Shown here: piece by piece, positions 4,824-21,107 of the stretch | Layout: every line of letters begins with the position of its first letter | Numbering within the stretch: the stretch's first letter is position 1 | Assembly (NCBI GenBank): GCA_947259685.1 | Contig: CAMYNC010000054.1 | Location: 1 to 22,963 of the forward strand | DNA length: 22,963 nt | DNA from: an uncultured Desulfuromonadales bacterium | Lineage (GTDB): Bacteria > Desulfobacterota > Desulfuromonadia > Desulfuromonadales > Geopsychrobacteraceae | Direction: 5' to 3' | Position numbers and translations under genes: made by a program | The notes under the pieces: generated by a model | Database searches by the model: none | Seen by the model: the letters and a program-made list of their open reading frames with translations, nothing else | Told to the model about the DNA's origin: nothing

Positions 4824-5921
4824 TTAAAACATAAACCGCCGCATACTCACGCTCATCAACAGACCCACCCCGATCATGGTAGTGACCATACTGGTACCAC
4901 CGTAAGAAAACAGCGGCAAAGGAACGCCGACCACCGGCAGTAGCCCAATCACCATCCCCAGGTTGACAACGATGTGCCAGAAAATCATCGCCGTGACGCC
5001 GATCGCCAGAAACATGCCGTAGCGGTCTGAAGCCCGGCGGGCGATGTAGATCCCCCAGATAATCAGGAACATGTAGCAAAAGAGCAAGACAAAGCTGCCG
5101 CTGAAACCCCACTCTTCAGCAAAAACCGAAAAAGCGAAATCGGTGTGCCGCTCCGGCAGAAAGGAGAGCTGCGACTGGGTTCCTTGCAAAAAACCTTTGC
5201 CAGTAAAACCGCCGCTGCCGACAGCAATCTTCGACTGAATAATGTGATAGCCACTACCAAGTGGATCAGCTTCAGGATTGAGAAAGGTCAGGATCCGCTG
5301 CTTCTGATACTCATGCAGACCGAACCAACCCCCCACTGCCGCCAGGACTCCCATTAGGACGAGGACGAGCAGGGTATTGCGCTGCAAACCGGCAAACAAC
5401 AACATCGAGACGGCAATAAAGACCACCATCAAAGCGGTCCCCAGGTCAGGCTGCTTGAGAATCAGCGCCACCGGCACCAGCAGCAGTAAAGCCGGCTGCC
5501 AGAGCTCCCCAAGGCTGAAACCAAGCGGATGAGCGGTGCGGCCGAAAAACCGCGCCAGCATCAGAATCATGATAATCTTGATCACCTCGCTCGGCTGTAA
5601 ATTGAAAAACCCAAGATTAATCCAGCGGGTCGCCCCCATCGAAGTCTTCCCCAGCAGCAGTACGAACAGCAGCAGACCAATGCTGATGATATATCCGTGG
5701 ATGGCAAAATGCTCAAGATGGCGATAATCGAAACAGCAGACCAACAGGGCTAAAAACATCCCGCCGCTGAGCCAGAGCAGCTGCTTTACATAAAGCGGCG
5801 TACCGCCCATCTGCCAATTGGCTGTAGCACTGAACAGGTTGGCGATGCCGATACCGGCAATAACGCATACGGTCAGCATCAGCACAAAATCGAAATGGAT
5901 GATCAGACGTCGGTCAAACAA
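4824..5921 (-). CDS. rodA: Rod-shape SEDS glycosyltransferase RodA
   Basis: RodA is the SEDS-family peptidoglycan glycosyltransferase of the elongasome. It polymerises lipid II in the inner membrane and works with PBP2. The 365-residue protein has about ten hydrophobic segments and SEDS signatures: the loop SFLPERHTDFAFSVFAEEWGFSGS, and near the C-terminus PVVGVPLPLFSYGGTSMV. The start is a TTG at 5921-5919. It has a strong Shine-Dalgarno (AGGGGGA), lies 3 bases after the mrdA stop and gives the typical MFDRRLIIHFDF amino end; the next Met is 14 residues inside. It is the last gene of mreBCD-mrdA-rodA and ends against the converging yidD-like gene. Confidence 0.96.
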   Translation of the reverse strand: MFDRRLIIHFDFVLMLTVCVIAGIGIANLFSATANWQMGGTPLYVKQLLWLSGGMFLALLVCCFDYRHLEHFAIHGYIISIGLLLFVLLLGKTSMGATRWINLGFFNLQPSEVIKIIMILMLARFFGRTAHPLGFSLGELWQPALLLLVPVALILKQPDLGTALMVVFIAVSMLLFAGLQRNTLLVLVLMGVLAAVGGWFGLHEYQKQRILTFLNPEADPLGSGYHIIQSKIAVGSGGFTGKGFLQGTQSQLSFLPERHTDFAFSVFAEEWGFSGSFVLLFCYMFLIIWGIYIARRASDRYGMFLAIGVTAMIFWHIVVNLGMVIGLLPVVGVPLPLFSYGGTSMVTTMIGVGLLMSVSMRRFMF

Positions 5922-13327: not shown

Positions 13328-13368
13328 AATCGCGCCATCCCTTTCTCAGGATGGCGCGATTCTTTTTT
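13328..13368 (+). terminator. Strong intrinsic terminator after purC
   Basis: A perfect 13-bp stem, AATCGCGCCATCC (13328-13340) with GGATGGCGCGATT (13349-13361), closes an 8-base loop and is followed by C and six T residues. It begins 8 bases after the purC stop. It has no T-run in the opposite direction, so it acts on plus-strand transcription. Confidence 0.95.
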
Positions 13369-13567: not shown

Positions 13568-15742
13568 ATGGATGTTGAACAGATGCAACCCAGGGTCAAA
13601 TATTGGATCTTCCTGATGGTCATCAACCTTATGGTCTTCGGGGTGATCCTTGTCAGCTTGGCCGGTTCCTGGTTCAGCCTCAACCCAGCGGAGCAGGAAT
13701 CACTGGCAAAAATGTTTCAAAAATTGCTGCCCTTTCCGCTGCTCGGTGGGCTGATTCTTTGTGCCACCATCGGTTTCCTGATCAGCCGTTTGTTCCATTT
13801 CTACATCATCCCGATTCTCAAATTGGGTGAAAGTACCCGGCTGATTTCCGCTGCAAACCCGGAGCATCGCATCGAAGTCAAGCGCGGTGCAAAAGAGATT
13901 CACTACCTGGCACGGATGATTAACGAGTCGGCTGAAGCCTTTGCCAATTTGCAGCGCGATGTCGATGAACAGATCGCTGGCGCCCAGGCCAAACTCGGTG
14001 AAGAACGCACCAGATTGGCGGCGCTGATGTCAGAGTTGCCGCATGGTGTACTGGTCTGCAACACCGACGGCCAGGTGTTGCTCTACAACCAGCAGGCCCA
14101 GCAGTTATTCAATCCGGAACATCTGATCAACCTTCCGGAAGAAAAACGTCACGGGATTCTCGGTCTGGGCCGTTCGGTTTTCGGCATCCTCGACCGCGAC
14201 CCGATCGTTCACGCCCTGGAACTGCTCTATAAAAATTTCGAATCGGGGCAACAGAAACCGATCAGCAATTTTATGATGACCTTGCGCAACGGGCTTTGCT
14301 TACGGGTCAATATGGCCCCGGTGTTTATTGAACGGGAAACCAAGAAGAGTATCACCGGCTTTGTCCTTACCATGGAAGACATGACCCGGCAGATGGAGGC
14401 TGACACCCGCCGCGATCAATTGATTCAGTCGTTGACCGATGATCTGCAAAGTACCCTGGAGAAGATTCGCACCTCGATCACCACCATTCTCAGCCAGCCG
14501 CGCCTCGACTTCGAACAGCTACACAGCTACCGGAAAACCATCGATCACGCCTCGCAAACCCTGCAGGAAAAAATCGACCAGGCCCGCAGCAACTATGCCA
14601 AACACCTGCACGACATCAGTAAAACCGAGGATGTGCTAGCCGGCAACCTGCTTGAGGTCATCAGCAAAAATATCTTCGATCGCTATGGCATCACTGTTAA
14701 CACCCAGGCGACTGAAGGGCTCTGGCTGCAACTCGACAGCTATTCGATGGTACAGGCGATTTCACACCTGGCGGGCTTGCTCAAAGGTCGGGAAAATACT
14801 CTGGAGGTGCTGATCACGCTGTCGCAGAATGACCTTGGCGAGGTGGAACTGGCAATCAACTGGCCGGATGATGAGGTCGACCTCAACCTGCTGGAAGAGT
14901 GGCAGCAAACCCCGTTGATTACCGATGCGCAAGGAAAATTATTGAACTTCAGAGATGTCATCGGTCAGATGAACGGCGCGATCAAGTCACTCTGTTTCCT
15001 CGATCAGGTCTGCAGTGGCATTCTGCTGGTCTTTCCACCGATCGACGCAGAGAGTTCGCCCGCGCTGCAGGTGAGTTTGGAACACCGGCCGATCTCCTAC
15101 GAGTTCGACCTGTTCAACCGCAGCGACTGGCAGGAACTCAGCCAGATGCCGCTGAATAAACTGACCTACGTGGTGTTTGATACTGAAACAACCGGTTTGA
15201 ACCCATCGGATGGCGATGAAATAATCCAGCTGGGAGCGATTCGCTGTGTGAACGGCCAGCTGCTCTACCATGAAACCATCGATCAACTGGTTGATCCGCG
15301 CCGCCACGTGCCGAAGTCATCGGTGGAGATTCATGGCATTCAACCTGAGTTGCTGACGGGGCAACCGACCATCGATAAAGTCTTGCCGGTTTTTCACCAG
15401 TTTGCTGAGAATTCGGTGCTGGTGGCCCATAACGCGGCCTTCGATATGCGCTTTTTGCAGCTCAAAGAAGATGTGGCCAGGGTCAAGTTCGACAATCCGG
15501 TGCTCGATACTCTACTGCTCTCCTCGATTCTGCATCCGAATCAGGATTCGCATGCCCTGGAAGGCCTGGCAGAACGCTTTAACGTGACCATCGTCGGCCG
15601 ACATACCGCCCTGGGCGATGCCATCGTCACTGGGGAAGTTCTGGTCAAGCTGATCCCGCTACTGGAAGCACACGGCATCATCACCCTAAAGGACGCCTTG
15701 CTCGCCTCAGCCAAATCGCCATTTGTCAAGCTGGGGTATTAA
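13568..15742 (+). CDS. Membrane-anchored sensor-like protein fused to a DEDDh 3'-5' exonuclease
   Basis: A 724-residue fusion. Two membrane helices (about 12-32 and 56-80) bracket a short periplasmic segment of about 20 residues. A HAMP-like helix and coiled linker (about 80-150) and a PAS-like domain (about 146-275, ending FVLTMEDMTRQME) follow. Residues about 283-490 have histidine-kinase layout but lack its key residues: the H-box position reads SLTDDLQSTLEKI (288-300), the N-box position reads SMVQAISHLAGLL (393-405), and no DxGxG or GxGxGL loop is present. The C-terminus is an intact DnaQ/epsilon-type exonuclease: Exo I FDTETTG (537-543, D538 and E540), Exo II HNAAFD (621-626, D626) and Exo III HTALGDA (679-685, H679 and D684). 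It would degrade DNA or RNA 3' ends at the inner membrane. Its regulation by the sensor part is inferred. Confidence 0.9.
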   Translation: MDVEQMQPRVKYWIFLMVINLMVFGVILVSLAGSWFSLNPAEQESLAKMFQKLLPFPLLGGLILCATIGFLISRLFHFYIIPILKLGESTRLISAANPEHRIEVKRGAKEIHYLARMINESAEAFANLQRDVDEQIAGAQAKLGEERTRLAALMSELPHGVLVCNTDGQVLLYNQQAQQLFNPEHLINLPEEKRHGILGLGRSVFGILDRDPIVHALELLYKNFESGQQKPISNFMMTLRNGLCLRVNMAPVFIERETKKSITGFVLTMEDMTRQMEADTRRDQLIQSLTDDLQSTLEKIRTSITTILSQPRLDFEQLHSYRKTIDHASQTLQEKIDQARSNYAKHLHDISKTEDVLAGNLLEVISKNIFDRYGITVNTQATEGLWLQLDSYSMVQAISHLAGLLKGRENTLEVLITLSQNDLGEVELAINWPDDEVDLNLLEEWQQTPLITDAQGKLLNFRDVIGQMNGAIKSLCFLDQVCSGILLVFPPIDAESSPALQVSLEHRPISYEFDLFNRSDWQELSQMPLNKLTYVVFDTETTGLNPSDGDEIIQLGAIRCVNGQLLYHETIDQLVDPRRHVPKSSVEIHGIQPELLTGQPTIDKVLPVFHQFAENSVLVAHNAAFDMRFLQLKEDVARVKFDNPVLDTLLLSSILHPNQDSHALEGLAERFNVTIVGRHTALGDAIVTGEVLVKLIPLLEAHGIITLKDALLASAKSPFVKLGY

Positions 15743-15760: not shown

Positions 15761-15926
15761 TAGGAGGCTGTCTGACTTTCTGGATCGAAACGAAAAATTG
15801 GATGTTCGAGAACAGATTTTCGACAATTTGAGAGCGAATAGCAGGGCTATTTGTCGAAAAGTGTCGGAAATATGGGCCGATCAGCCAACTTTGCAGTCGA
15901 TTCATGACAAGTCCGACAGCCTCCTA
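15761..15926. mobile_element. 166-bp palindromic MITE-like element
   Basis: The ends are an 18-base inverted repeat with one mismatch: TAGGAGGCTGTCTGACTT at 15761-15778 and its complement at 15909-15926. The arms keep pairing imperfectly inward to a central AATAGC-AGG-GCTATT hairpin (15837-15851), and TTTTCGACAA (15817-15826) also recurs inverted at 15851-15860, so the whole element is one long imperfect palindrome. If TA is the duplicated target, the ends are GGAGGCTGTC, as expected of Tc1/mariner (IS630-like) derivatives. It encodes no transposase. It lies between two convergent genes, could terminate both, and its right end contains the stop codon of the hybrid kinase. Confidence 0.75.
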
Positions 15927-17969
15927 ACTGGCGTTGCGACTTGACAGCAAGACAGTGATCTTACGCGCAACTTCACTGGCGGTCAGCGGTTTAGGCAGAC
16001 AGGGGTCGCCGCAAGCCGTCAGCTCGCTCTGCCCGCCACATTCCTCATCGTAACCGGTCATAAAAAGCACCGGCAGCTCGGGCCGCAGCTTCAGAACCGC
16101 ATCGGCCAACTGCTGACCGCTCAATCCCGGCATGCAGCGATCGGTCAACAGCAAAGCGTAGTCTGCCGGTTGCTGCTCGAACGCCCGTAGGGCGGCACGA
16201 CTGCTGGTGAACCCGACCACCCGGTAACCGTAACCGGTCAGTCCGGCGATTAACAGATCAACGATATCCGCTTCATCATCGACCAGCAAAATCTGTTCAT
16301 CCTGGGCACTCACTTCGATCGCTTTGGTTTGGCCTTTAGTTCGAGCAGCGCAAAGAGGCAGGTAAACCTTAAAGCAGCTCCCCTGCCCTGGGGCACTATC
16401 TACGTCAATGAATCCACCATGACTGTGGACAATCCCCTGCACCACCGCCAAACCCAGGCCGGTCCCCTCGCCCGGCTGTTTGGTAGTAAAAAATGGATCA
16501 AACAGCTTTTTCAGCACCTCCTCATCCATCCCACTCCCAGTATCGCTAATCTGCAGGCAGAGGAAAACTCCGGCTTCGACTCCAAGCGGCACACCGGCTT
16601 CGCTAGCAAGTGTCGTTTGCTCCAGCTTGAGGCGCAAAACGCCATCTACCCCGGCCATCGCCTGCCAGGCATTGGTGCAAAGATTCATCACCACCTGATG
16701 CAACTGCCCCGGATCGGCATTTACCAGGCAGCCCGGATCGAGAAGCTCCTCCTCAATCCTAATAGTTTTAGGAAAGGTCGGGCGTACCAGTTCCAGAACC
16801 TCATCGATGATCCCCCGGAAACAGACCGGCTGCTTGGCATGCTCGCTCCGCCGGCTAAAGGCCAGGATCTGCTTAACCAGCCCCTTGGCACGTTGTGCAG
16901 CGCCGAAAATCTGGCGCAGATCTTTCTGGAGTTTTTCACCGACCTCTGGCCGCTGTAATGCCAGTTCCGAATAGCCAAGAATCGGGGTCAGCAGGTTATT
17001 AAAATCGTGCGCTATCCCACCAGCCAGGGTGCCGACAAGCTCCATTTTCTGAGCTTGCCGAAGCTGTCCAGTCAGTCGTTCCCGCTCCTCTTCGGCGGCG
17101 ATCCTTTGCCGGATATCTTCCTCCAGCAGCCGTTTGCTCTCTTCCAGTTCCAGGGTCCGCTCAGCGACTCGCTCTTCCAGCTCACTGTTAATCTGCTGCA
17201 GGCTCTCCTCCTGCCGCTGCCGTTCATTATCGCGCTTGACCAGCAACCTGGCCCGTACGATAAGCCCGCTGAGTCCGGTGAGCCAGAGCAACACATATCC
17301 AACCACCAATTGCAGGCGGGTACTGGCCAAAAGCGCCAAGCTCGGAGTCATCTCGATGGAGACACTGATCCCGCCGCGAACTTCACCCACCTTATAGCCC
17401 TGATGGGCATGACATTCGATACATTCCTGTTCTACCAGCAGCGGCCGCATCAAGCGCATGACCTGGTTGCCAGCCAGCGGCTCAACGGAACTGATTTCAG
17501 CCACCCCGTTCTCGAATTCTTTCAGAGCCTTAGCCTCCCAGGGGTCAGGAGCATTGTCTGGTCTCAGCGGTTTCAGGCTGGTCAGGTGGCCATAAATCCC
17601 GATCCTCTCAAGGCCCAGTTCATTGGCCTGGCGGGTCATATAAGCAGGATTCATCATCGTTAAGGGAACCCCGTCCGGAGTACTGATATCCCGTTCTGGA
17701 ACATCCAGATAGGGATTAGGCGGGGTTTCTTCAGAGACCGGGACATAGACGAATTTATGCGAAGAATTCCAGAACCGGTAAAGAACATCTTTATCGTAGG
17801 CAGTTCGTGCCTGCACCCGGACCAGGTCGAGGACCTGTTCGCTGGCGCTGTCCAGGTTCCAAGCCAGCAGTGTCCCGATCGCCAGGGTCCAGATCACCCC
17901 CAGAGTCCAAAGGTAATAACCAGGCCCTTTCTTTCGGCTCGTCCTGCTATCTGTTGCGTTAACGCTCAT
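15924..17969 (-). CDS. Hybrid sensor histidine kinase with periplasmic heme-c (Tll0287-like) domain and receiver
   Basis: A 681-residue two-component sensor. Two membrane helices (about 18-39 and 219-241) enclose a periplasmic domain of about 180 residues resembling the Tll0287-like/DUF3365 family. It has a CxxCH heme-c attachment motif at 183-187 (CIECH), followed by [16 protein letters not shown] coiled linker (about 245-308) leads to a kinase core with phospho-acceptor His321 in [12 protein letters not shown]-box [11 protein letters not shown] (428-438), G1 DTGSG (476-480), FDPFFTT (490-496) and G2 GEGTGLGL (500-507). The C-terminal receiver (about 558-675) has Asp564/565, phospho-acceptor Asp610 in LTDRCMPG, Thr638 and Lys660. 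The start overlaps the upstream kinase by 4 bases with a GGGAGG ribosome site. The TAG stop lies in the adjoining palindromic element. It likely senses redox state or a heme ligand. Confidence 0.93.
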
Positions 17970-19843
17970 AAGCCTCCCAGCTCCCTAGCTTGGTAGCGAC
18001 AGTCATTTTCCGACCGCTCTCCTCCTGTGGGTTGCTTGACAACAGCAGAACATTTACCTGCAGCAAAAATTGCGGCAGCATGATTTAAACCGCCAACTCT
18101 ACTGAAACTGACCGGAAACAGAATCCGAAACCTGGTGCCGATCCCAACCTTGCTGTCAACCTGCAGTTCGCCACCGTGCTGTTCAACGATCTGCCGCACA
18201 ATGTATAAACCCAGACCGGTCCCCTTACCAGCGTCCTTGGTGGTAAAAAACGGCTCGAAAACCTTTTCCAGCTGCTCCGAAGAGATTCCGGTTCCGGTAT
18301 CTTCTATGTCAAAAAAGACCCGCCCGTCTTCGGCTAGCGCACTGCGTAAAGTTAAAGTGCCTTTACGCCCCATGGCGTGCACAGCATTGATCTGCAAATT
18401 GCGCATCAGCTGCTCAAGCTGATGCGGATCGCCAGCAATCAGCGGAAGGTCGGTGGAAAAATCCTGAACCAGAGTTAAATATTTGGTGACGCCACTCATT
18501 TGCAGCAGATCGGTCACCTGCGCAAAGACCTGGTTCAGGTCAAGTGGCCCGAACTTGGGGGGTTGGGGTTTGTTGCCGATGCCGAGCAGGTTATTCGCAT
18601 GCAGGCGTAACTGTTCTGCCTGCCTGAGCATGGTGGCGGCACATTTGTCGACGAATGCCGCATCCCCGGAGCGGCCATGCAGCAACTGACCATAGCCGTA
18701 AAGCCCACTGATGGCATTGTTGATTTCATGGCCGATGCTGCTGGCAATGACTGAAATTCCGGAGAGTTTCTCGGCTTCGAGAGCTTTTTCCTGCATGACT
18801 TGTCGCTCGGTTTCATCGCGCAGAATCGCAGTAACAATCCGCGCATCAGCGTCACCGGAAACAGCAAAGGTCAGCGCCAATGGAAAAGATTCCCCATTGG
18901 CCCGACGACCCTGCCAGTTCAGTAATTCGCCATCCCGGCTACCGCCCTGAGCAAAAAAATCTTGCAGCGCACTTTTGGTCTGCGGTTGCTTCTCTTCCGG
19001 CATCAGTTGACCAAGTGGCATCTCGATCATATCCTCCGCAAGATAACCGAAAATTCGCTGTGCTGCTGAGTTGCAAAGCACAATCCTGCCCTGCTGATCG
19101 ACCGCCAGAATGCCGTCCTGGGCTGAACCGATCAGATTGCGGTACTTAGCTTCAGATTCAAGCAGACCGATACGTTGCCGCTCGATCTTCCGGGTGGCAC
19201 GAAAAACCAGAGAGAATAAGGCCAGGTAGAGCAGACCGAAACTGCTGAAAATAATGCACCAGACGATTCGTTGCTGATGGTTGAACTCAGCATAGAGGGG
19301 GTCCATGTTGCGATAGACTTCAAAAATAATGTCAATGCCAGGACTACCCGGAAAGGTGATCGGCACATAGAGTTCCAGCAACCGCTTGCCGTGGTTATCG
19401 CTTTCCAACTCATGCTCGCTCTCGGTGCGTTCATGCCCTTTCCAGGTCATTTCGACGACTTCACCACCGCGAGAGAGGACCTCTTCAATGCCATGATTAT
19501 CGGCATAACGACGCCCGACCATCTCTGGCATGTCGGCCCAGATAACCTGATAATCCGGACTCCAAACTTTAATGCGTTCGATATTGTGGCCCAGACTCAG
19601 ACGGGATATTTTTGCCGCGAAGGCGTGGTAGGCGTCCCCCTGCAAAGGAGTACGTAATTCATCGGGATGCAGTTCTTTGATAACTTCACCCCTGATCACC
19701 GCTGAAGTCATTTCTTCAGCATGCTTGATCAGGTTCTTTTCCATCAGGAAGTTGATGGCCAGGTTCAGCATGATCCCAAGCAGGATCAACATCAGCAGGC
19801 AGATCAGAGAAAACTTCTGCAGCAGACTGAATTTGCGGATCAT
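17966..19843 (-). CDS. PAS-domain membrane sensor histidine kinase
   Basis: A 625-residue sensor kinase. Membrane helices at about 11-33 and 193-215 enclose a periplasmic sensor region of about 160 residues without a CxxCH motif. A PAS domain follows (about 233-348: YRNLIGSAQDGILAVDQQGRIV), then the kinase core: His372 in SIGHEINNAISG, N-box MRNLQINAVHAM (480-491), G1 DTGTG (515-519), FEPFFTT (529-535) and G2 GKGTGLGL (539-546). The core ends near residue 579. The last 46 residues (SRVGGLNHAAAIF... to ELGGL) match nothing I know and span the ribosome site of the next gene. The ATG at 19843 has a GAGGTG Shine-Dalgarno. It is translationally coupled to the hybrid kinase downstream, which may relay or compete for its phosphate. 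No DNA-binding partner is in the window. Confidence 0.92.
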   Translation of the reverse strand: MIRKFSLLQKFSLICLLMLILLGIMLNLAINFLMEKNLIKHAEEMTSAVIRGEVIKELHPDELRTPLQGDAYHAFAAKISRLSLGHNIERIKVWSPDYQVIWADMPEMVGRRYADNHGIEEVLSRGGEVVEMTWKGHERTESEHELESDNHGKRLLELYVPITFPGSPGIDIIFEVYRNMDPLYAEFNHQQRIVWCIIFSSFGLLYLALFSLVFRATRKIERQRIGLLESEAKYRNLIGSAQDGILAVDQQGRIVLCNSAAQRIFGYLAEDMIEMPLGQLMPEEKQPQTKSALQDFFAQGGSRDGELLNWQGRRANGESFPLALTFAVSGDADARIVTAILRDETERQVMQEKALEAEKLSGISVIASSIGHEINNAISGLYGYGQLLHGRSGDAAFVDKCAATMLRQAEQLRLHANNLLGIGNKPQPPKFGPLDLNQVFAQVTDLLQMSGVTKYLTLVQDFSTDLPLIAGDPHQLEQLMRNLQINAVHAMGRKGTLTLRSALAEDGRVFFDIEDTGTGISSEQLEKVFEPFFTTKDAGKGTGLGLYIVRQIVEQHGGELQVDSKVGIGTRFRILFPVSFSRVGGLNHAAAIFAAGKCSAVVKQPTGGERSENDCRYQARELGGL

Positions 19844-19896: not shown

Positions 19897-20058
19897 TCAA
19901 AAAAATCGCAACAGATTGCGGATTTCATCTTTAATCCGCTGGATCGTACCATGCAGCCGCCCCAGCTCTCTGGCCCTCTGCGGCAGACTGCGAAATCCGA
20001 ACAACAGGCCGACCAGCAGGGCCAGCATCAGCAGCTCCCAAATACCAAAACCGAACAT
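19897..20058 (-). CDS. TatA/TatB-like small membrane protein (53 aa)
   Basis: A 53-residue frame beginning MFGFGIWELLMLALLVGLLF and ending in a TGA at 19899-19897. It has the TatA/TatB plan: a very short periplasmic start, one membrane helix (about 6-20), the hinge FGFRSLPQRARELGRL (20-35), where family members usually have FGP..LP..(A/R).LG, then a charged amphipathic helix (IQRIKDEIRNLL). Phe replaces the usual hinge proline. The ATG shares one base with the selD stop (TAATG) and GGAG sits 9 bases upstream, so translation is coupled to selD. TatA and TatB form the twin-arginine pore that exports folded proteins, including many selenoenzyme complexes such as formate dehydrogenases. A true Tat role here is an inference from residues and context. 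Confidence 0.75.
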   Translation of the reverse strand: MFGFGIWELLMLALLVGLLFGFRSLPQRARELGRLHGTIQRIKDEIRNLLRFF

Positions 20059-21107
20059 TATGCCGACTCCAACTGCAGACGACCGACGGTTTCTGCAGTG
20101 ACTTCACCGATCAGGGTTGCGGTCACTTGACGCGCTGTCAACGCCTGGCAAAGGCGGTTGCAGCGCTCCGACGCGACCGCAATCAGCAGTCCTCCCGAAG
20201 TCTGCGGATCGCAGAGCAGATCCAGTTGCAATGGGTCACACGCCTCCCTGCCATCAACGCGGTCGAAATAGTAGTCGCGATTGCGGTGGGCCCCTTCCGG
20301 GATCAGGCCGATTGCCGCCATTTCCAGGGCCTGGGGATAGGCCGGCAAATCTGCCAGCCGGAACCGCAGGCCAACCTGGCTGGCCTGGGCCAGTTCCAAG
20401 GCATGCCCGACCAGCCCGAACCCGGTAATATCGGTACAGGCGGAAACCCCTACCTCCAGCATGGCTTCTGCAGCCGCCTGATTCAGGCTGATCATGCCTT
20501 CAATCGCGGCACTGATTTCCGCCTCACTGACAACCTCCCCTTTCAAAGCGGTGGCCAGGATACCGGTACCGAGCGGTTTGGTCAGGATCAGCTGATCTCC
20601 GGGCTGGCAGCCGCAAGTCGTGACCATTCTTCCAGGATCGACCAGGCCGGTCACCGACAGACCGTATTTCGGTTCATCATCCTCAATGGAATGCCCCCCG
20701 GCGATCACGGCACCTGCGGCAGCAACCCGTTCGGCACCACCCGCAAGGATCTGCTGCAAAACCTCGGAGCCGAGTTGAGCAAGCGGAAAGGCCACCAGGT
20801 TCAGAGCAGTGATTGGCCGCGCACCGATAGCAAAAATATCGGACAGCGAATTTGCGGCAGCGATCTGACCATACCGGTAGGGATCATCTACCACCGGAGT
20901 AAAGAAGTCGACCGATTGCACCAAGGCCTGATGTTCATCGAGACGGTAGATGGCGGCATCGGCAAAAGGAATCTGCTGCGACAACAATTGCGGGCAGTCA
21001 GTTTTGGGGAGCTGACTCAGCACCTGAGTCAGGGTCGCGGGACCGATTTTGGCCGCTCACCCGGAACTGCGTGACAATGCGGTCAACCGCAGCGGTTTAT
21101 CCGTCAT
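20058..21107 (-). CDS. selD: Selenophosphate synthase, selenocysteine-containing
   Basis: SelD makes selenophosphate from selenide and ATP, the selenium donor for selenocysteine synthesis. The complete gene runs from ATG 21107 (AAGGAGAG Shine-Dalgarno at 21120-21113) to TAA 20060-20058: 349 codons, close to E. coli SelD (347). Codon 17 is an in-frame TGA (21059-21057), giving SSGUAAKIGPATL. This is the catalytic Sec/Cys17 position, and Lys20 is kept as well, so readthrough is expected. A caller that treats TGA as stop would start at the GTG at 21023 and lose the active site. Later motifs include QSVDFFTPVVDDPYRYGQIAAANSLSDIFAIGARP and GGHSIEDDEPKYGLSVTG, with the nucleotide-binding Asp residues. 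Downstream of selB; the TatA-like gene overlaps its stop by one base. Confidence 0.96.
21012..21059 (-). promoter_or_regulatory. Selenocysteine UGA codon and candidate SECIS hairpin of selD
   Basis: TGA at 21059-21057 is followed on the minus strand by a perfect 9-bp stem CTGACTCAG/CTGAGTCAG with loop GTG (21032-21012). The loop begins 33 bases after the TGA, within the range I recall for bacterial SECIS elements, and contains the G and U that SelB usually reads. A weaker alternative hairpin (GCGGCC / GGTCCCGC around AAAATC) lies directly after the TGA. Confidence 0.65.

Follow-up and report, generated by a model that had tools for sequence, protein, structure and literature searches.

One gene of the window (the whole stretch of 22,963 nucleotides that was analysed) raises the question of what a histidine-kinase fold without kinase chemistry does between a membrane-anchored sensor and a nuclease. 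A first-pass annotation had read the protein as a signalling protein whose output is replaced by a 3'-5' exonuclease. The parts of the gene are as follows, all on the + strand.

13568..15742, +: whole gene, membrane PAS pseudo-histidine-kinase DEDDh exonuclease, 724 aa
13592..13819, +: two transmembrane segments and a short loop, residues 9-84 (hydropathy; model helices 8-36, 55-89)
13796..14011, +: putative HAMP-like linker, residues 77-148 (helix pattern in the model)
14000..14398, +: PAS domain, residues 145-277
14408..14617, +: pseudo-DHp helical hairpin, phospho-His site = D291, residues 281-350
14618..15052, +: pseudo-CA domain (ATPase fold) lacking the N-box Asn and DxGxG, residues 351-495
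15086..15115, +: RPxxYEFDLF family motif, N-terminal to the exonuclease, residues 507-516
15158..15667, +: DEDDh 3'-5' exonuclease domain with the full catalytic set, residues 531-700

Domain organization

The order of domains in the reading frame is two transmembrane segments, HAMP-like linker, PAS, DHp-CA fold and DEDDh exonuclease. Hydropathy places the membrane segments at about residues 9-39 and 52-84; the loop between them (residues 36-54) is the least conserved part of the protein in the alignment of relatives and, since it is also short, the signal is likelier to be cytosolic (through PAS) or membrane-borne than a loop-bound ligand. The HAMP region is predicted as a helix, a low-confidence connector (97-107) and a second helix (109-155), and Pfam calls HAMP in 2 of 71 relatives; a PAS fold is present, with weak Pfam PAS matches. 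The earlier picture of a membrane-anchored, sensor-type protein with a C-terminal 3'-5' exonuclease domain agrees well with the predicted membrane segments, the PAS domain and the RNase_T match. In the motif that precedes the exonuclease R507, Y511 and F513 are invariant (84/84 in alignment A1), and R507 is kept in 172 of 212 wider loci, 38 being gapped at this position. The full-length model (pLDDT 70, pTM 0.44) is too weak to judge the domain arrangement.

A sequence search with the 724-residue protein scored 7999 sequences, of which 7781 were homologues at E<=1e-3; those beyond the best 120 may have only the exonuclease part in common. Within the best 120, the homologues that carry organism names come mostly from Desulfuromonadales, for example Malonomonas rubra.

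A dead histidine-kinase core

Residues 268-500 modelled alone gave a pLDDT of 89, with a DHp hairpin followed by an ATPase fold of the CA type and structural matches to histidine kinases, the pseudokinase DivL included. The comparison with DHp/CA domains proposed in the first-pass annotation thus returns a kinase-like core; the narrow profile of the A1 cores on its own reached a probability of only 19. The same annotation had described this core as lacking the phospho-His, the N-box Asn and the G boxes, and the relatives bear this out: among 130 that keep the core none has a His at the phospho-site (positions 290-292), an N-box Asn or a DxGxG motif (0/130 in each case), Asn at 404 and Asp at 432 likewise being found in 0/130. 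In alignment A1, where the CA part is the least conserved domain, His at 290-292 occurs in 0 of 84 sequences and position 291 is D in 72, E in 8, N in 2 and A in 2; over the 130 cores scored, the phospho-site residue is acidic in 95 of the 121 that have one. An initial placement of the phospho-site at T290 was dropped for D291 on the basis of hhalign; neither residue is a His.

With the kinase residues missing from 130/130 cores and an intact core in no relative examined, the dead core is general in these relatives and represents an old state rather than local decay; a degeneration confined to the window was accordingly rejected, and so, on the same residue counts, was a catalytic kinase. That the protein might still be an active or phosphotransfer-competent kinase through unusual residues, an idea for which the persistence of the histidine-kinase fold speaks, is hardly credible when His at 290-292, N-box Asn and DxGxG are missing from every core.

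The exonuclease domain

The RNase_T family of Pfam is matched strongly (residues 535-691, 1e-33), and among solved structures PolC-type and epsilon exonucleases come closest in sequence (2p1j, 3.4e-29). The claim that all five DEDDh catalytic residues are present is correct: D538, E540, D626, H679 and D684 lie within the RNase_T fold of the window protein, and the set is complete in 209 of 212 loci, the frames of the remaining three ending early.

The gammaproteobacterial relatives L223 and L224 retain PAS and core but not the exonuclease residues, and neither matches RNase_T at E 0.01; their mutual identity is 38%, and both frames are open over their full length. From these sequences a doubly dead form, in kinase and exonuclease alike, has probably persisted, and catalysis would therefore be dispensable in some lineages.

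A lone receiver gene beside most cores

Relatives were gathered as 80 loci from named genomes, together with further genomes in which matches were found in 42/98, 63/120, 35/240 and 18/274. With one duplicate removed, the 198 unique usable loci comprise 123 that bear the core, 72 that are core-less and 3 with partial cores, so that with partial cores left out the core is missing from 72 of 195. A lone CheY-like receiver (REC) gene stands directly upstream in 84/123 core-bearing loci, as against 0/72 core-less loci and 0/3 partial ones; a loose search found no REC-like match within 1 kb of the core-less genes. The adjacent REC is missing from 39/123 core-bearing loci, the window included.

The raw Fisher p for this association (4e-25) ignores kinship, and the support that takes kinship into account is mixed. 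An exonuclease-domain tree of 193 rows shows 14 core changes and 21 REC changes. A Pagel-type test of dependent versus independent change was positive (LR 35.4, p 4e-7; first run LR 34.1), with a fitted rate of core loss near 0 in the presence of REC and of 1.6 in its absence; as it was run with our own script on one quick tree with midpoint root, flat root prior and duplicate L151 included, its p is indicative only. Independent pairs on the exonuclease-domain tree were not significant: in 5 well-supported pairs (4 in an earlier locus set) REC changed in the same direction in 3.1 on average and never in the opposite one (p 0.125-1).

The sequences of both partners point the same way. Across 80 aligned REC partners two Asp and one Lys are present in 80/80 and a Thr in 78/80. 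The 84 REC-paired cores conserve R294 (82), E328 (79), H468 (76) and W473 (83); W473 is found in 0/20 window-type cores and in 6/19 other REC-less cores, and at least three of the four residues are kept in 83/84 REC-paired, 0/20 window-type and 11/19 other REC-less cores. DHp helix 1 is missing from 6/19 other REC-less cores versus 0/84 REC-paired ones. In a mirror-tree comparison of 80 pairs, with the exonuclease allowed for, REC divergence has its highest partial r with the DHp (0.62; PAS 0.53, CA 0.51), a small difference that is at most suggestive of REC binding to the DHp. Among loci with at least 3.5 kb of flank at each end, the large type of kinase occurs within 4 kb in 25/38 REC-paired, 1/14 core-bearing REC-less and 0/10 core-less loci.

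A parallel exists in Caulobacter, where the DHp-CA module of DivL reads DivK~P; as far as the account in PMC4211667 goes, alphaproteobacteria without DivK often lack the DHp-CA of DivL. Core loss appears to follow REC loss here in the way reported for that pair, and we therefore read the core as an ancestral dock for REC. The earlier view that a signalling output has been replaced by a nuclease holds for the exonuclease domain on a dead core; it needs amending for the core, which goes with a lone REC in most other lineages and is absent only where REC is absent too. This pattern points to docking, and the core may be more than a relic. For the family as a whole docking would be the best reading of the core.

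The window-type group

The window copy departs from this arrangement. There is no cognate lone REC within 1 kb of the gene, where the single weak match is to the REC of an opposite-strand hybrid kinase, and the residues typical of REC-paired cores are replaced by Q294, A328, M468 and K473. When 8 window-type genomes were searched with a Nitrospirota REC, the best matches (41-50% identical) fell in frames of 235-355 aa in 8/8, whereas the same query recovered a lone REC at 55-66% identity in two REC-paired genomes; weaker matches in lone frames of about 130 aa also occur in window-type genomes, so a relocated partner is possible there. Six more distantly related loci of the window's class (L109-L114) have both REC and core, and the absence of REC is accordingly a trait of the window-type group rather than of the class. 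Core-less members of the class exist as well (L105-L108): in genomes G046, G050, G072 and G086 one frame matches model positions 1 to about 270 and about 478-500 to 719, with the core cleanly missing. With the core kept, no adjacent REC and the typical residues lost, the docking role is probably gone from the window group.

A tie to DUF294 and organic-acid genes

The conserved neighbours suggested as a check were sought with purpose-built HMMs, examples being verified by Pfam, and they do recur: beside the relatives lie genes for DUF294 proteins with CBS (and cNMP) domains, an SSF symporter, the single-domain REC, a HisKA/HATPase_c kinase and acetyl-CoA synthetase (acs). DUF294 is near the exonuclease gene (in examined flanks of none to 10 kb) or fused to it in 157 of 211 unique loci. 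Among the named-genome loci it is present in 62/80; loci of the window's type (L001, L002, L003, L005, L006) are among the 18 without it. Four loci (L200, L203, L225, L226) carry RNase_T, CBS, DUF294 and DUF294_C in a single frame, and in L197, L208, L222 and L227 exonuclease-only frames of about 200-265 aa adjoin DUF294. In L081 the gene directly after DUF294 encodes a DEDDh exonuclease of a different subfamily, PRK09146 (318 bits).

The DUF294 and exonuclease genes are unlinked in the window group. In G003, a genome of this type, one DUF294 gene is found on another contig (L087), surrounded by what we take, from reading the sequence, to be SSF-like genes. DUF294 occurs in 24/24 genomes with the exonuclease protein and in 91/98 genomes of the class, namely 42/42 with and 49/56 without an exonuclease match; mere presence is hence weak evidence and was set aside, and the argument is carried by proximity and fusion.

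The N-terminal part of the neighbouring kinase has 9-14 hydrophobic segments in complete copies; in L010 this part matches the solved histidine kinase chain 10ed (residues 7-473, 1.2e-76), and Pfam calls SSF in 1 of 4 tested. We read it as SLC5-like, as in CrbS.

Related gene sets have been studied in pseudomonads. According to the text available of PMC9927547, PP_0353 (RNase_T) and PP_0354 (CBS) of P. putida form an operon that is a target of MxtR/ErdR; the PP_0353 mutant is impaired on pyruvate with no defect on acetate, and mRNA decay is the authors' speculation, while deletion of pp_0354 leaves growth on pyruvate unaffected. PA3232-PA3235, which include an acetate permease gene, are reported to be higher during growth on propionate (PMC9765439, in part), and DUF294_C has been grouped with the C-terminal domains of GlnD/GlnE (PMC3710099, in part). 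Judging from its look-alike in L081, PP_0353 is probably a member of a different DEDDh subfamily.

Between DUF294 and REC or exonuclease, L069 encodes a protein of 173 aa (4906-5427) whose N-terminus is hydrophobic and which has no Pfam match; like genes are seen in L067, L035, L163 and L178.

Proposed mechanism and its rivals

In the mechanism that we propose, a histidine kinase, often the SLC5-like one of the same locus, would phosphorylate the lone REC; REC~P would dock on the pseudo-DHp in the manner of DivK~P and DivL. Docking and the PAS signal together would change the dimer and thereby gate the exonuclease, which may work with the DUF294 enzyme to control how organic acids (acetate/pyruvate) are taken up and used. 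In the window's group, from whose loci the REC arm has gone, PAS/HAMP input alone would be expected to act, the core being kept as dimeriser and lever. The computed parts of this explanation are the domain order, the dead kinase fold, the complete exonuclease site, the REC-core pairing in most other lineages and the DUF294 tie; taken whole, as a DEDDh exonuclease with PAS and a membrane anchor, for which a histidine-kinase chassis was repurposed, with REC docking and DUF294, it has in our view an even chance of being right. A bolder form, in which two-component control of organic-acid use acts through nucleotide chemistry instead of transcription (kinase to REC to dead core to an exonuclease that erases nucleotides added by DUF294), seems to us quite improbable; on that signalling route the window would show a derived state, its receiver arm having been lost.

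The dead core might instead be a mere spacer or dimeriser left by a kinase ancestor, with control by PAS/HAMP alone and with REC and core eroding together as signalling arms. The number of core-less loci, some of them in the window's own class (L106-L108), the loss of the REC-paired signature in 20/20 window-type cores and the poor conservation of CA within A1 all fit such a history, which is strongest in the window itself, where the docking role is probably gone; against it, REC-paired cores conserve R294, E328, H468 and W473 despite dead catalysis, and core loss is limited to REC-less states in the fitted model. On balance we consider it unlikely, though it keeps real weight. A writer/eraser pair, in which nucleotides attached by DUF294 to a protein or an RNA are taken off again by the membrane exonuclease, the two together fixing the state of an organic-acid transporter or its regulator, would draw on the single-frame fusions, on the frequency of DUF294 nearby, on the second kind of DEDDh enzyme 3' of DUF294 in L081 and on the GlnD/GlnE grouping of DUF294_C; the unlinked genes of the window group and the pyruvate defect seen with pp_0353 but not with pp_0354 make it improbable. 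The role in DNA repair, competence or defence that the first-pass annotation had suggested for a signal-controlled membrane nuclease finds some footing in a complete DEDDh domain near the PolC and epsilon types and in recN and a rarA-like gene (rarA by recognition) about 9-12 kb away in the window. It fits poorly with the relatives, whose surroundings are transport and acetate genes (DUF294, SSF, SLC5-like kinase, acs), and PADLOC gave no specific match to a defence gene, its hits being generic CRISPR-associated DEDDh and PDC-S48 models on the exonuclease domain; we regard this role as very unlikely.

Comparison with known systems

We found no description of such a protein in the open-licence literature searched; pseudokinase readers and DEDDh exonucleases are both known, and in that literature it is their combination with a conserved partner set that is undescribed. 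DivL, the pseudo-histidine kinase to which we liken the core, has a Tyr at the phospho-site, appears to retain the other kinase boxes and has no exonuclease, as far as its published account describes it, whereas in the window protein the kinase boxes are gone and an output is fused. Unlike PolC/epsilon-type exonucleases the protein is membrane-bound, with a sensor N-terminus, an RPxxYDF motif and no polymerase part. The short exonucleases of the PP_0353/PA3232 type are likewise RNase_T proteins, share an operon with a CBS gene and are tied to organic-acid genes, but the portions available of PMC9927547 and PMC9765439 mention no sensor or kinase fold, and the L081 look-alike is PRK09146. CrbS/R (MxtR/ErdR) resembles many relatives in having an SLC5-like histidine kinase and acs nearby, and differs in that this kinase has intact HisKA and HATPase_c, while the lone REC here is without an output domain.

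If docking is true, DivL would be joined by another histidine-kinase fold that has changed from sending signals to reading them, here with an enzyme fused as output. The family would also give a way into two genes that still lack an explanation, those for the DUF294 nucleotidyltransferases and for the exonuclease targeted by MxtR/ErdR. Of the new evidence, the REC/core pattern and the exonuclease-DUF294 fusions are the most useful. The relatives form a natural series (REC with core, core without REC, core minus the DHp helix, no core, exonuclease by itself, DUF294 fusion, exonuclease dead too), and this makes the core/REC question directly testable.

Genes around the window copy

Pfam identifies recN-, ppiD-, purC-, mreB-, selD- and selB-like genes and two intact histidine kinases around the window copy; nadK, rarA, rodA, mreC and mreD are presumably present as well, by recognition. 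Scans of the window returned neither a tRNA nor an Rfam family at gathering score. Of the 23 stretches compared from the window's class, 12 have purC upstream of the exonuclease gene in the same orientation. An operon of purC and the exonuclease gene was rejected for the window, where the following feature stands between the two.

13328..13361, +: terminator-like hairpin of 13 pairs followed by a T-run, separating purC from the exonuclease gene (consensus scan)

This hairpin suggests that the exonuclease gene is a separate transcription unit; the scan gave 5 terminator-like sites in the region versus 2.8 expected from shuffles.

Between the exonuclease gene and selD, two intact histidine kinases overlap (15924-19843, -), one of them with a Tll0287-like sensor and a fused REC. 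As conserved partners they were discarded, with no match at E 1e-20 in the 23 class stretches, many of which span only about 1.5 kb downstream; selD-like genes occur in 6/23 and selB-like genes in 5/23 of these stretches. The frame of the window's selD gene (20058-21107, -) can be extended across an in-frame TGA (21059-21057, context SGUAAKI), and the gene product itself appears to be a selenoprotein; owing to this TGA, ORF callers place the start of the gene too late.
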